Virus record (IMG/VR): IMGVR_UViG_3300010370_000292
Span: 1 to 21,320 of that record
Origin: a virus
Strand: one strand, 5' to 3'
Length of the DNA stretch: 21,320 bases
The notes beneath the pieces are model-generated. The model saw only the letters and a list, made by a program, of their open reading frames with translations, searched no databases and had not been told where the DNA came from. This document shows positions 3,601 to 12,614 of this stretch, piece after piece (the stretch's first letter is position 1; every line of letters begins with the position of its first letter). The translations under genes and the position numbers were made by a program.

Positions 3601-4499
3601 TAGCTGAGGATGTTGCTGGCACTGGATCGTTCGTAATGAACACGCTTTCCCAAGCTGCAAACAATTACAATTTCGATACAGACAGACCAATAAGTACATT
3701 ACCAGAAGGTATTGCAAAAACAAAAGAACAAGCAGAGTTTGCAGTAAATAACTTATTTACTCCTAATTTTGTTGATTTCGCTAAAAAATCACAAACAAGG
3801 CCGGTGTCTCAAACAGTTCAAAAACTTGCCGGGATTAGATTCAATGATACAAATATAGATAAAGGGTTTGGATTTAGGGCTAGGAATTTAAAGAACAATC
3901 TTAAAGCTATCAGCTCCAATATATCCTCCGAAAGATATAAGGTTGAAGAAGGAAGGATAAATCAACAAGAATTTGATGAAGCCTATAATCAAAACAACCA
4001 ATCATACAGAGACAACCTTCAAGCGTTAAATCGCCATGTTGCAAACCTTCGTACTATTGGACTGACCGACGGGAAGATTGCGACAATGCTAAAGGACAAT
4101 GGATTTGGTAGCGAGATTGCGCTTGCCGCTCTTGATGGAGAGATTCTTGATGCTCCAAAAATTAAGCGTGATACCATCACGGATACCTACGATGAGTTTG
4201 GCAACATCCCTAGAAAAGAGATTGAAGCTAGAATCCGTGAGATTGCAAAGCAAGATCCAAACAAGGGCAGGTCATTGGTAAGTCATCACAAACAGCGTCT
4301 TATTGATGACAAGTTAAATATTGGGGATAAAGATAAACTGGTAAAAGCACTTAGCACCAGTGATGGGACTAGGGCTAGATATATCTTTAAACAGATGCAG
4401 AAGAACCAAGAACCAGATTCTGTTCTTAAAATGTTCATGAAGAAGGGCATTGCCACACCAGAGGTTGTGCGCGACATTAGAATCCTACAAAAGAAATGA
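675..4499 (+). CDS. Very large internal virion (ejection-type) protein with N-terminal SPEEWL repeats
   Basis: The protein is 1274 residues. Residues 2-49 are three back-to-back 16-residue repeats, each starting SPEEWL. Residues 108-160 form a Gly/Ala-rich hydrophobic zipper (AMGMGAEIGIAESAKLSGTL and on), with further hydrophobic stretches near 205-225 and 240-256, all able to enter a membrane. The rest is long, mostly helical and charged, with no lysozyme or protease motif that I could recognise. Size, hydrophobic glycine zippers and position in a structural operon match the large internal proteins that short-tailed phages eject to carry DNA across the envelope. It also resembles the large multi-domain polyvalent proteins of uncultured phages. 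The ATG is fixed by the ATGA overlap with the previous gene. Codons are A/T-rich compared with the capsid genes. Role is inferred; that it is a real gene is near certain. Confidence 0.8.
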   Translation: MSPEEWLKQEKEKNQALSPEEWLARESAEKQSLSPEEWLTQEKQNDQVAENLNKEAQGIQPTVVVGIPGGGGVSIPVTAERTQESVNKELESRVKEAEKDPENEPSLGKVAMGMGAEIGIAESAKLSGTLGGAAVGGPFGAGVGYVGGALTGGALGSIAAQKIEGRDSTNWWRVAADAVLNVIPGTKLTKGPKMLVKASEVLAKKPIATTAIVGAVSAPIATAAEEIQETGEIPDAAKLAKASAIGLAFGAGLGLSQEKVIPILKRISGKSPKEFNDLVNSGDQYANAYVDAIFAGVDEKDFLTKDDLKLFIGTLGQTAKANIAPTKVVGQQAAQAMRDAANIASAGREIGGLLGSRVNDAIAKSSDPAAVQHFALEYITGQAPKVPKELESLSTDMSQARKYIAEYQDGLLEMHYNGQRKMPDMLVKYIEESKNRGDYLTRSYAFYGDANYFPSKEATKELLDDLTTQPRIGIDERKFIRKTDAQGNRLEIENPNYGSEIDLPPMNKAEAEKYIADLNLKKASNPDELHNWIYSQNAGILKEKKDLSPALRKYLGEYTTPGEKISETMSKLSRLVAYDKADNQISNIFRDMGIAKFAGEGVEGLQPIKLRRGNARIGEEELYGPPELQTAINHLYANGSDDATMDFVGRTFVDAYQTSLAASKAMKTVFNPASYATNYIYGPMNMAGMGMNPFKKFGRGAKFAAAQYEPVAKMMSNVDIDEFKAWKELGVFPKGLAFSDIQAGLKSGKIGRFAQKIIDPVGKAYSFADVQNRYITAKNYESQLFKQFPGASPELVRKEAARFTNNTAQNYDFVSNGVKTLSKNGLPADQFAVFTFELIRNQYHQGKLIKNMLDGSYAEEMAKKFGVVPNQKAIQAEAYKRIASMVMVYATTTATAMKTMEFLGVDREKERAYRETVLPDYAEKKPLFIKDNPKTGEVGWMNLSYVVPQQQLIGPFIAGLNGRSINDAVKFGITGLAEDVAGTGSFVMNTLSQAANNYNFDTDRPISTLPEGIAKTKEQAEFAVNNLFTPNFVDFAKKSQTRPVSQTVQKLAGIRFNDTNIDKGFGFRARNLKNNLKAISSNISSERYKVEEGRINQQEFDEAYNQNNQSYRDNLQALNRHVANLRTIGLTDGKIATMLKDNGFGSEIALAALDGEILDAPKIKRDTITDTYDEFGNIPRKEIEARIREIAKQDPNKGRSLVSHHKQRLIDDKLNIGDKDKLVKALSTSDGTRARYIFKQMQKNQEPDSVLKMFMKKGIATPEVVRDIRILQKK

Positions 4500-5181: not shown

Positions 5182-5540
5182 TACTAGAACCAGAATCCAG
5201 ACACGAAGATCACCTCAAAGATGGTGGCAACCTAGTCCGCCACTATAGGGTAACGCACGATGGGATTGACTATCCATGTCATACCCTGTGCTACGCCTCG
5301 TATCTAGCCGAGAAGTTTAACTCAAAGATCTGGAATGTGGTGCTAGAAAAGCACATGAAGCCATTTATCGGAGTGTGCTTACATTGCCTTGGTCGCAAAA
5401 AGTATCGCCATCTTCACTTTGTTAGCGGCAATCGTGGATCACTACCCCCAGATGATGATGCATTTTGTTGCGAGGAATGTGATAGCGTTTACCACATTAA
5501 GGACATCTTAATGGAGACGGGCGCGTACAAAACCAAGTAA
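5178..5540 (+). CDS. Zinc-ribbon-like protein between the terminase subunits
   Basis: The protein is 120 residues. Two cysteine pairs, C67-x2-C70 (CLHC) and C98-x2-C101 (CEEC), are spaced like a four-cysteine zinc ribbon; C97 makes a CC doublet. The N-terminal half has additional His and Cys (CHTLCYASYLAEKF). There is no enzyme motif. It is inserted between the small and large terminase genes with a 4-base overlap upstream and a 1-base (TAATG) overlap downstream, so its dose is tied to the packaging motor. A DNA-binding accessory role in packaging is a reasonable inference, but I do not recognise the family. The metal-binding call rests only on the cysteine pattern. Confidence 0.65.
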   Translation: MILEPESRHEDHLKDGGNLVRHYRVTHDGIDYPCHTLCYASYLAEKFNSKIWNVVLEKHMKPFIGVCLHCLGRKKYRHLHFVSGNRGSLPPDDDAFCCEECDSVYHIKDILMETGAYKTK

Positions 5541-7546
5541 TGCAGTGGCGCAAACATCCAATCCTACAGCCTCCCAGCGATGACGAGGTTGCCTTGATGG
5601 AGCCAGATGATCTCATTGAGCTTCATCGGGTGTACCATGAGGCTATTGAGAATTCCGAGAAAGACCCATTCCGCTACGGGTTTAGACTTCCACACTGGGA
5701 GAAAGCCGAAGAACAATTATCACAAGTCTCTGAGGTTCTGGCACTTGGTGGGAACAGGTGTCTTGCAGGACATCAAGAGATATTTGATCCAGTAGCTGGA
5801 AAGCACATTCAAGTAAAAGATATTCCAAGCAGTTTCCATGTATGGGCATGGGACGAAAAATCACTTGGGTTCGTGGTGGCATTAGCTGGCAAGCCGTTTA
5901 AAAAAGATAAGGAAGAAGCCATGCTTCACTTTGAGTTTTCGGACGGCACGAGAATATCCTGTACCGCTAACCACCAGTTCTTCTGCTACCATCGCGGATG
6001 GATTCCCGCTGAATCCGTGGCATTTGAAGGCAGTAAGCTAGTGTCGCCAGACGCAATGGAACTTGTTGTCATTTCAGTTTCTAGAGACAATTATGTGCAG
6101 GATGTCTGGGATTTTCATGTCCCAATTTACAACAACTACTTTATTGGTGGAGTGTTGTCGCACAATTCAGGCAAAACGGCGTGGGGTTCCTACTGTGTGG
6201 TTAAGGCTGCCATTGAAAACCCAAAGTCAGAGATCATGTGCTTTGCTCAGACATCGGAGGTTAGCATACGCCAACAACAAAGCGCAGTATGGGAGTGGCT
6301 TCCAGCGGAAATGCGTACCAAGCAAACATCAGCTAATGCCTACATCTCGTACACGAAGAAGAACGGCTTCACGGATAACTCGCTGATTCTACCCAATGGG
6401 TCGCAGATTATCTTCAAGACCTACTCTCAATATCAGAACAATCCAACTATCCTTGAGGGCGCAGAACTTGGCAGCCGTAATCCTAAATGGCACAACATTG
6501 GTGCTTGGGTCGACGAATACTTATTAGGCCCAGAGCTAATCAATACGCTTCGATTCCGACTTGCCACGCGAGACGCTAAACTGTTGCTTACATTTACCCC
6601 GATTGACGGGTGGACTGAAGTTATTAAAGAATACTTAGATGGGGCGGCTAGTGTTGAAAGCCAAGAAGCAGAGCTTTTAGGTGGTGAACTAGTACCCTAT
6701 GTCCAGAGAAGCAAAAAGCGCAACGCCAGCGTCCATTACTTCCATAGCAAGGACAACCCTTTCGGTGGCTACGAGCGTATTAAGGAGACACTAGTTGGGC
6801 GGCCTCGGGAGGAGATCCTAATTCGTGCGTACGGGGTTCCAGTTAAGTCCCACGCCACCAAATTTCCCAAGTTCAACAAGGAGGTCAATGTCGTTTCCCC
6901 CGACAAGATCCCGACTAGTAATGTTACGCGTTATCATATCATTGACCCAGCTGGATCGAAGAACTGGTTTATGGCGTGGATTGCCGTTGATGCGTCTGGG
7001 ACATTCTGGGTCTATCGTGAGTGGCCGGGTGTTGAGGTTGGTGACTGGGCTGAATGGAAAGGTGGGAAGTGGATGCCGGGGCCGGGAGCTAAAGGTCAAG
7101 GGTTTGGTATCCGCGACTACATTGACTTGATTGCCGAGCTTGAAGGTGATGAAAAGATTTTCGAGAGACTCATTGACCCTCGACTTGGAGCTGCTAAGTA
7201 TCAGTCATCCGATGGCGCATCGAGCATCATCGAGGACTTGAATGACGCTGGTATGGTCTGCCTCCCTGCGCCCGGCTTAGACATTGACGATGGTCTTCAA
7301 GCACTTATTGGCAAGATGTCGTGGGATACGACTAAACCAGCAGACTCCATCAACCGACCACATTTCTATGTCAGTTCGGATTGCGAGAATATCATCCAAG
7401 CGTTGAGCGAGTACACAGGTGAAGGTGGGTTAAAAGAAGCATGGAAGGACTGCGTGGATATTTTAAGGTACGCTGCTATCGCAGGAATAGATCATGTTGA
7501 CGAAACCCGTAATTTTGCTACAAGACAAGGAAGCGGAGGCTACTAA
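5540..7546 (+). CDS. terL: Terminase large subunit with embedded intein
   Basis: The precursor is 668 residues; removing residues 74-209 leaves a 532-residue motor of normal length. The Walker A loop is split: GGNR ends at residue 73 and SGKT resumes at 210, giving GGNRSGKT after splicing. Walker B is AWVDEY (D325, E326), and the coupling motif follows as LLLTFTP (348-354). The C-terminal RNase H-like nuclease shows its acidic residues in HIIDPAG (D469), LIDPRLG (D546) and WKDCVDILRY (D637, D640). The protein pumps DNA into the prohead through the portal and cuts the concatemer. As translated the P-loop is broken, so activity should depend on protein splicing. The start overlaps the previous stop (TAATG). 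Confidence 0.95.
   Translation: MQWRKHPILQPPSDDEVALMEPDDLIELHRVYHEAIENSEKDPFRYGFRLPHWEKAEEQLSQVSEVLALGGNRCLAGHQEIFDPVAGKHIQVKDIPSSFHVWAWDEKSLGFVVALAGKPFKKDKEEAMLHFEFSDGTRISCTANHQFFCYHRGWIPAESVAFEGSKLVSPDAMELVVISVSRDNYVQDVWDFHVPIYNNYFIGGVLSHNSGKTAWGSYCVVKAAIENPKSEIMCFAQTSEVSIRQQQSAVWEWLPAEMRTKQTSANAYISYTKKNGFTDNSLILPNGSQIIFKTYSQYQNNPTILEGAELGSRNPKWHNIGAWVDEYLLGPELINTLRFRLATRDAKLLLTFTPIDGWTEVIKEYLDGAASVESQEAELLGGELVPYVQRSKKRNASVHYFHSKDNPFGGYERIKETLVGRPREEILIRAYGVPVKSHATKFPKFNKEVNVVSPDKIPTSNVTRYHIIDPAGSKNWFMAWIAVDASGTFWVYREWPGVEVGDWAEWKGGKWMPGPGAKGQGFGIRDYIDLIAELEGDEKIFERLIDPRLGAAKYQSSDGASSIIEDLNDAGMVCLPAPGLDIDDGLQALIGKMSWDTTKPADSINRPHFYVSSDCENIIQALSEYTGEGGLKEAWKDCVDILRYAAIAGIDHVDETRNFATRQGSGGY
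5759..6166 (+). mobile_element. Mini-intein in the TerL P-loop (136 residues, no homing endonuclease)
   Basis: The N-terminal splice block starts with C74 (CLAGHQEIFDP). Block B is DGTRISCTANHQFF with the T142-x2-H145 signature. Block F/G is VWDFHVPIYNNYFIGGVLSH ending in penultimate H208 and terminal N209, followed by S210 as the +1 nucleophile. These are all the residues needed for a class 1 intein. Only about 40 residues lie between blocks B and F, so there is no room for a LAGLIDADG or HNH endonuclease. One block F position that is often His (HNF in the consensus) is Asn here (NNY). Inteins are known to favour the conserved P-loop of phage terminases. Boundaries are set by the Cys and Asn/Ser residues and by restoration of GGNRSGKT. 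Confidence 0.93.
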
Positions 7547-11027: not shown

Positions 11028-11067
11028 CCCTATCCTAACAAGGTCAATTCCCAGGGCTATGCTCGTT

Positions 11068-11140
11068 CGGCCTATCGAGCCATGATCAAATGAGGACGGT
11101 CATCGGATTCCAAATCCGCTTCCGAGTTAATAGGCCGCCA
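11068..11140 (+). other. Imperfect tRNA-sized structured element (tRNA-Trp-like features)
   Basis: A perfect 8-bp outer stem pairs 11068-11075 (CGGCCTAT) with 11130-11137 (ATAGGCCG) and is followed directly by CCA, giving a 73-base unit. Inside, TTCCAAA (11108-11114) is flanked by CGGA and TCCG, exactly the look of an anticodon loop with anticodon CCA (Trp). However, only 11 bases separate that arm from the acceptor strand, so there is no room for a T-arm, and no good D-arm is seen. It may be a decayed tRNA, a tRNA-like processing signal or chance. An alternative hairpin (GCTCG 11061-11065 with CGAGC 11076-11080) competes with the outer stem. Confidence 0.3.
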
Positions 11141-11153
11141 ATCTAAAACCAAC

Positions 11154-11591: not shown

Positions 11592-11633
11592 AGTAGTAGT
11601 GGTGACTCCCGGCATTCGAGGAAGGTTCTAGGG

Positions 11634-11997
11634 CATAGTTCGCCTTAAACGGCTAAACTATGTAGATACTCCCGTATATTCTTCGGAAAGGACATTCACA
11701 CACCAGCTAGGCTGGAACCAAGGATAGCAGAGGGTTGAGGCTGTAGGTCTGCATCAAGCTCCTTGATCGTCACACTCTATTTAGCTACGCCGCAACTGAC
11801 TTCAAGCGTAGTACCCATGAGACTTTTACCTAGCTTCCGTACGGTCGTTTTAGCGTTCCTCGGTTACCTGTCTATGTTGCTATACCTCTGGGTAAAACAA
11901 AGGGCTAGCACGAGGAAGTCAGAACCCGCGCTAGCCCTTAGATCCGTTGCTTAACGCTTCGGAGGGGTGATTGGTGACAGATTTCTGACTTCCTGTC
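11634..11997 (+). ncRNA. Candidate structured RNA with three mutually complementary hairpin loops
   Basis: Seven stems can be drawn: 11634-11662 (CATAGTT and GCC paired with GGC and AACTATG), 11703-11715 (CCAGC/GCTGG), 11727-11752 (GCAGA/TCTGC), 11753-11767 (ATCAAG/CTTGAT), 11785-11811 (CTACGC/GCGTAG, hairpin A), 11900-11939 (AAGGGCTAGC/GCTAGCCCTT, hairpin B) and 11976-11997 (GACAG/CTGTC, hairpin C). Loops A and C both contain CTGACTTC and loop B contains GAAGTCAG. B can therefore pair with A over 8 bases or with C over 10 (12 if C's stem opens), but not with both. There is no convincing protein in this stretch. The strand is assumed from the surrounding genes. Ends, transcription and function are unproven. 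Large phage RNAs such as GOLLD or ROOL are the nearest known concept. Confidence 0.42.
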
Positions 11998-12143
11998 GAC
12001 GCAAATAATGCACGATTTCTGTGACAAGTCAACACCAAAATAGTTATTCCTTGACGTAAAAAGTACCAACAATTTACTCCTAGACTAAACGTGGCTTGAC
12101 GCAAATATTGACAAATTCCGTTAATTTCGTTACGTGTTTATTT
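11998..12143. other. A/T-rich spacer with repeated TTGACG-type elements
   Basis: GACGCAAATA occurs at 11998-12007 and again exactly 100 bases later at 12098-12107. TTGACGTAAA lies between them at 12051, and TTGACA at 12108-12113 has a 17-base spacer to TACGTG (12131-12136). These could be -35-like promoter elements for the HNH gene or binding sites for a regulator. No gene is seen here; a TTG-started extension of the HNH frame from 12096 is possible but less likely. Confidence 0.35.
12095..12105 (+). repeat. Left copy of inverted repeat flanking the HNH gene
   Basis: CTTGACGCAAA lies 39 bases before the preferred HNH start. Its exact reverse complement is at 12708-12718, on the other side of the gene. 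The pair frames a 624-bp segment. Confidence 0.55.
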
Positions 12144-12614
12144 ATGCAAGAAGTCAAGCAAAAATTAAAATGGGGAACTATTGGTGAAGATGGGCGAGTT
12201 TTTGTAAGTCGTCATAAATGCGGAAAGGAATATTGGGTGTCTAAAGAACACTTCGATATAATGAAGAAATCTAAACAGGAAAGAGAAAGGATAGCCTACA
12301 GAAACAGCGACAAACGTAAGCACAGTGCGCTTTTATTCTCAAGGGGAAAGAAGGGCAGAAATTTAAGATTAAAACGAGTGTATGGAATTTCGCTTGAAGA
12401 CTACGAAATAAAACTATCTGAGCAAAATGGAGTGTGCGATATTTGCAAAAAAGCATGCACAACGGGCAAAAGGTTAGCTGTTGACCATGACCACGAATCA
12501 TTAAAGGTAAGGGGACTGCTGTGTACCAATTGTAATAAGGGGCTTGGGCATTTCAAGGAGTCTCCAGAAATTATCTTGAATGCGTTAGAGTATCTTAAAA
12601 AATGGGATAATTAA
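12144..12614 (+). CDS. Free-standing HNH endonuclease, recombination endonuclease VII-like
   Basis: The protein is 156 residues from the ATG at 12144; a TTG at 12096 would add 16 residues of low-quality sequence. The C-terminal half is the endonuclease VII-type fold: RVYGISLEDYEIKLSEQNG, CDICKKA, LAVDHDHESLKVRGLLC, CTNCNKGLG. Two CxxC pairs bind the structural zinc, and the VDHDH and Asn residues form the beta-beta-alpha metal site. The N-terminal half is Lys/Arg-rich and probably contacts DNA. T4 endonuclease VII resolves branched DNA during packaging, but short relatives scattered in phage genomes often behave as homing endonucleases. Here it stands alone between non-coding blocks with inverted repeats on both sides and A/T-rich codons, which favours a mobile gene. 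No interrupted gene or intron was found. Confidence 0.88.
   Translation: MQEVKQKLKWGTIGEDGRVFVSRHKCGKEYWVSKEHFDIMKKSKQERERIAYRNSDKRKHSALLFSRGKKGRNLRLKRVYGISLEDYEIKLSEQNGVCDICKKACTTGKRLAVDHDHESLKVRGLLCTNCNKGLGHFKESPEIILNALEYLKKWDN

Follow-up and report, generated by a model that had tools for sequence, protein, structure and literature searches.

An RNA gene of a group of uncultured phages, not previously described, lies in the stretch of DNA analysed here (the window; 21,320 nt, positions 1-21,320 of IMG/VR virus record IMGVR_UViG_3300010370_000292). That it is a real structured RNA, encoded on the minus strand, in which the loops of two hairpins (B and C) pair with each other, we regard as close to certain. 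The phage RNA family it represents is not in Rfam; its covariation is unusually strong, its promoter is defined and its end probable, and its downstream part is exchangeable. A sequence-only reading had previously drawn attention to the region, describing three hairpins in a plus-strand RNA at 11785-11997. The sequences it quoted, its hairpins (A 11785-11811, B 11900-11939 with ten perfect stem pairs, C 11976-11997) and its loop matches are all present in the window, but the feature is larger than proposed, about 11605-12032, and lies on the opposite strand.

A minus-strand module with a covarying loop pair

In the minus direction the order is promoter, hairpin C, hairpin D, hairpin B, a U-run and the exchangeable downstream part, or cargo; hairpin C to the U-run make up a constant module of about 100-110 nt. 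The features in the window are:

12027..12032, minus: -35 box TTGACT, conserved in position in about 80 of 84 distinct copies, as TTGACT/G/A or TTGCGT
12005..12010, minus: -10 box CATTAT, at a spacer of 16
11976..11997, minus: hairpin C, which opens the transcript; its stem, GACAG/CTGTC, has covarying columns
11983..11994, minus: C-loop pairing segment, AGGAAGTCAGAA on the minus strand, from covariation
11943..11963, minus: hairpin D, from nested-pair covariation and folding
11900..11939, minus: hairpin B, a strong GC-rich, terminator-like stem with compensatory changes in 12 of 14 counted pairs
11913..11924, minus: B-loop pairing segment, TTCTGACTTCCT on the minus strand, from covariation
11894..11901, minus: U-run TTTGTTTT at the end of B, intrinsic-terminator-like
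11605..11890, minus favoured, less certainly than for the module: type I downstream (cargo) RNA domain, replaced by other domains or ORFs in relatives
11785..11811, minus: hairpin A, part of the type I domain; match of its loop to B not conserved

Relatives were collected as 80 loci in IMG/VR via the major capsid protein, with more from pattern scans for the different domains, and the loops were compared across 84 distinct modules holding 28 distinct C/B loop pairs. In the window, positions 11913-11924 of loop B are complementary to 11983-11994 of loop C over 12 nt, an inverted match that occurred in none of 100 dinucleotide shuffles of 11605-12005. The claim that the loop matches are non-random thus holds for B and C. 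Taken alone, the 8-nt match between A and B is weak evidence, as chance would give a sequence this long about 1.4 complementary 8-nt pairs; 9 were observed, a count that takes in overlapping positions of longer helices. Among the relatives, the C and B loops are complementary over 9-14 nt in nearly all 28 distinct pairs, with alleles that differ among phages. In a register picked by best helix, 9 of 9 counted B-C pairs change on both sides (80 doubly changed cells) and 100% of cells are paired, compared to 64.7% in shuffles; since the register was chosen in this way, the less biased figure is the mean score of own versus cross pairing, 9.9 versus 5.8. The nested stems covary as well, with compensatory changes in 20 of 24 pairs, a level reached by 0 of 500 shuffles. 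The B-C pairing of the sequence-only reading thus withstands both the chance estimate and the comparison of homologues. Only one copy is clearly mismatched, L131 (648-776), which combines B from one allele with C from another and is either a natural recombinant or an assembly chimera.

The plus-strand reading is contradicted by the wobble bias, the promoter and the fold energies. Over the whole module read as minus, G.U cells outnumber A.C cells 76 to 22 (p=4e-8, with cells of related sequences not independent), and the B stem read as plus would contain 66 A.C but 7 G.U mismatches. The fold of the window beats its shuffles on the minus strand (z-scores of -2.6 for the module and -2.5 for module plus cargo) but not on the plus strand (-0.9), and minus folds are better than plus folds in all four cargo types. 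An apparent fourth hairpin at the 3' end of the plus strand turned out to be the minus-strand promoter instead. The promoter boxes are in place in about 80 of the 84 copies (with TATTTT, CATTAT, TAGGAT, TAAGAT, TAGATT or TAAATT as the -10 box), and the spacer is 16 or 17 in 81 of them, within the 16-18 nt of sigma-70 promoters; a generic promoter scan also flags the window promoter, although such hits are by themselves not above chance. Transcription would start near 11998.

At the other end, hairpin B and the U-run form an intrinsic-terminator-like end, at which transcription is predicted to stop. The combination of a GC-rich hairpin followed by a U-run is found in the minus reading only and is present in cargo types I-III and 0, with a mean hairpin energy of -24.8 kcal/mol and a mean of 7.7 T among the 12 nt that follow the final G/C of this hairpin (76 copies in each case, type IV not counted). 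The B loop, 10-14 nt, is long for an intrinsic terminator.

Exchangeable cargo in a fixed genomic slot

What follows the module is either one of four unrelated structured domains, types I (the window), II, III and IV, or, in type 0, small same-strand ORFs that start shortly after the U-run. Mapped onto the capsid-gene tree, cargo type has switched 22 times or more, without ever leaving the one gene slot, and it differs even between close neighbours (III in L163, II in L067). Since identical loop alleles are found with different cargo types, module and cargo recombine. On the plus strand the module always comes after types I-IV, which places it ahead of the cargo in the RNA, and covariation within the cargo was found for types I and II. 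The strand of the cargo is less sure than that of the module: the data fit minus for types I and IV, are too sparse in informative cells for type III, and are ambiguous for type II, whose G.U/A.C ratio of 5:16 points to plus and whose energy favours minus. A protein-coding origin of the type I stretch was rejected, as it holds no minus-strand ORF of 60 aa or more and relatives differ by frame-breaking indels. Four unrelated structured domains in one slot amount to further uncharacterised RNAs.

Several observations concern individual cargo regions. In L017 the slot holds, next to a type III RNA, a 30-nt remnant of the type I domain end (3941-3970), which suggests that one cargo was replaced by another. 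The type IV domain (L070, L075, L077, L078; minus) contains a T-arm-like hairpin, GGTTCAATCC, whose stem changes from CGGG/CCCG to CCGG/CCGG; no tRNA or tmRNA was called in the relatives, this domain included. Elsewhere in the window, 11060-11150 looks tRNA-like by eye (GGCCTAT...ATAGGCC followed by GCCA, with the arm CGGATTCCAAATCCG), and ARAGORN found no tRNA in the window.

Wherever flanks were examined, the RNA has a 67-aa ORF on one side and the scaffold and capsid genes on the other, and is on the strand opposite to the head genes; phages without the RNA have about 110-270 bp in this slot, or other ORFs. A covariance model of the module gives a single strong match per contig in 12 RNA-bearing contigs and none in 14 RNA-less records; two further marginal matches are to the other strand of true copies, which they overlap. 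No copies were found in bacterial genome contigs searched with the type I pattern and the capsid protein, and no near-neighbour DNA among sequenced phages. The HNH ORF (12144-12614, plus; Endonuclease_7, endonuclease VII-type), which lies directly upstream of the RNA promoter and is divergent from it, had been put forward as a neighbour of the RNA. It proved optional, recurring only in L042/L111 (91% aa) and L093 (58%), with none or unrelated endonucleases at other loci. Given this scatter, and other endonuclease-like ORFs that occupy the slot in other phages, the slot seems open to homing-type genes. No phage integrase (PF00589) was found in 16 related contigs of 34-43 kb; the phages are therefore probably lytic, and a P4-like lysogenic immunity is unlikely.

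Other features of these genomes were noted in passing. Downstream of the RNA and on its strand, L011 has a 163-aa ORF (3802-4293, minus) with weak matches to sigma-70 region 4 and helix-turn-helix families, and ORFs of similar size occur in L001, L003, L006, L014, L017 and L023. Type IV phages carry a second conserved stem-rich stretch, CCCGTAACGTGGGTC...GGTGGTCGACTAGCCACCGACC, between the RNA promoter and the scaffold gene (L070 4700-4820, L077 4660-4810). The large terminase gene of the window (5540-7546) contains an intein, with Pfam Intein_splicing matching residues 89-155 and the terminase domain 207-442.

A proposed leader mechanism and its rivals

Tentatively, and with somewhat more doubt than confidence, we propose that the module is a leader of the attenuator or antisense type, whose self-complementary loops control read-through into the cargo. 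A sigma-70-type promoter would start a minus-strand RNA that runs through hairpins C, D and B into the U-run, and most transcripts would stop at B. Pairing of the C loop with the B loop, whether inside one nascent transcript or between two transcripts that share an allele, could then alter how often the polymerase passes B into the cargo. The basis for this in the sequence is the minus-strand promoter, the structure, the covarying loop pair, the U-run and the exchange of cargo; termination at B, regulation by the C-B pairing, and any action in trans, we infer. That type 0 ORFs start shortly after the U-run is as expected if the module gates what follows. Against the proposal, loop pairing might leave a lower B stem free to form, so that any effect could go in either direction; the length of the B loop and the type II wobble ratio, which favours plus, also speak against it. 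A search for trans targets of the loop 9-mers in 8 phage genomes gave only scattered recurrences, no more than slightly above expectation and with no position seen in common among the genomes.

On the proposed leader reading, the RNA looks like a self-recognising control element that phages re-equip with new cargo. One could also speculate, although we think this unlikely, that a self-recognising module with diversified, always-matching loop alleles gating RNA or protein cargo provides, at the level of RNA, a specificity comparable to immunity or incompatibility, acting when lytic phages of one clade co-infect. Ready-made mutants exist in the natural loop alleles and in the mismatched L131, and a role of the loops as self/non-self tags between phages is directly testable.

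The main rival, a possible reading that we nonetheless consider less probable than not by some distance, is that module and cargo make up a single ornate noncoding RNA, about 290-510 nt long, in which the B-C contact is an architectural pseudoknot of a conserved 5' domain, the variable 3' domain is the functional part, and B is no terminator. The structured cargo of types I-IV, covarying in types I and II and always preceded by the module, would fit this, as would the joining of one conserved to one less conserved region in GOLLD (PMC12286853); in type I, moreover, the U-run can pair with a conserved GGUAAAA. However, type 0 loci have ORFs after the module, the U-run after B is kept across types, and pairing between the module and the cargo end is unsupported: a helix closing the C-D linker onto the cargo 3' end, plausible by eye and in a single-sequence fold, was rejected because own pairing (13.6) was not above cross-type pairing (14.2).

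Multimerisation, with pairing between the C of one RNA and the B of a second RNA that has the same allele, would give dimers or rings working in the manner of phi29 pRNA or ROOL, with allele diversity separating the RNAs of different phages; this strikes us as improbable. The loops do vary among relatives yet match each other, the same allele occurs with different cargo types, and loop diversity somewhat exceeds that of the B stem (mean pairwise identity 0.66 versus 0.75-0.78), but the D region is diverse too (0.71), and intramolecular pairing gives the same covariation, which does not separate cis from trans.

A DNA-level element is more improbable still, and we give it very little weight: the inverted repeat would stay complementary through template switching, or cargo exchange would use it as a site of recombination or folding. 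The frequency of that exchange beside the module and the several HNH-type endonuclease ORFs in the slot would be in keeping with this, whereas the strand-biased wobble pairs, the conserved promoter and the U-run on one strand point to RNA.

The switch of the sequence-only reading, in which the loops of A and C vie for loop B in a plus-strand RNA, can be dismissed with near certainty: its 8-nt A-B match is present in the window and in L011, L014, L089, L096 and L079, but the A loop keeps CTGACTTC in L103 and L082 (with one change in L082) where B and C differ, and is different in L004 and L093, whose B/C core allele is that of the window; the type I domain, and hairpin A with it, is absent from types II-IV and 0; and the strand assumed is the wrong one. 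A does not follow B and C and does not compete with C for B. The third proposed partner of B, TTCCTCG, is part of its own local covarying hairpin and its match to B is not conserved either, which leaves nothing of a mutually exclusive three-way arrangement.

Comparison with known RNA systems

A cmscan with Rfam 15, run on the window and on relatives with each cargo type, gave no gathering match, models for GOLLD, ROOL, HEARO, group I introns and c4 included, and a relaxed search of the window region returned weak unrelated matches only, far below the cut-offs. The kinship with GOLLD, ROOL, HEARO or group I introns that had been considered thus falls away, and the alternative, a phage RNA outside Rfam with genuine loop-loop pairing, is borne out by the covarying B-C loops. 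HEARO is regularly linked to its HNH-type ORF; the HNH ORF of the window accompanies the present RNA only there, in L042/L111 and in L093.

Among systems with comparable parts, phi29-type pRNA has two complementary loops in one RNA, as C and B do here, that could pair between molecules, but the phage is not phi29-like and nothing links the RNA to packaging. In pT181-type antisense attenuation, use of a terminator hairpin could likewise depend on RNA-RNA pairing; here, in contrast, both partners are on the same strand and predicted transcript.

ROOL is also a structured phage or prophage RNA with kissing loops (PMC12286853), although size and anatomy differ and its covariance model finds no match. 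Closer in outline is GOLLD, which is phage-borne, has no known protein, and combines a conserved with a variable domain and loop-loop contacts (PMC12286853). In the present RNA, however, it is the 5' part that stays constant, and the entire 3' part is exchanged; the RNA is smaller, does not match the GOLLD model, and occupies a single slot beside head genes with no tRNA found.

For the proposed leader mechanism the nearest parallels are the CI RNA of phage P4, which acts on its own leader, pairing with complementary segments there and terminating transcription early (PMC4825925), and c4 RNA, another phage antisense RNA, tied to heteroimmunity (PMC12197685). As in the seqA-seqB-seqC leader of P4 and the c4 of P1/P7, complementary segments precede genes that they might control, on what is here a predicted common leader, and allele-specific pairing could provide self/non-self specificity (PMC4825925; PMC12197685). 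The present module differs in having two complementary loops rather than three segments, an intrinsic-type terminator and cargo that is often RNA, and, where P4 CI and c4 belong to temperate elements, in the lack of an integrase in the 16 contigs and of a match to the Rfam c4 model. We do not claim membership in CI or c4, but by analogy the module may work like the CI RNA of phage P4.
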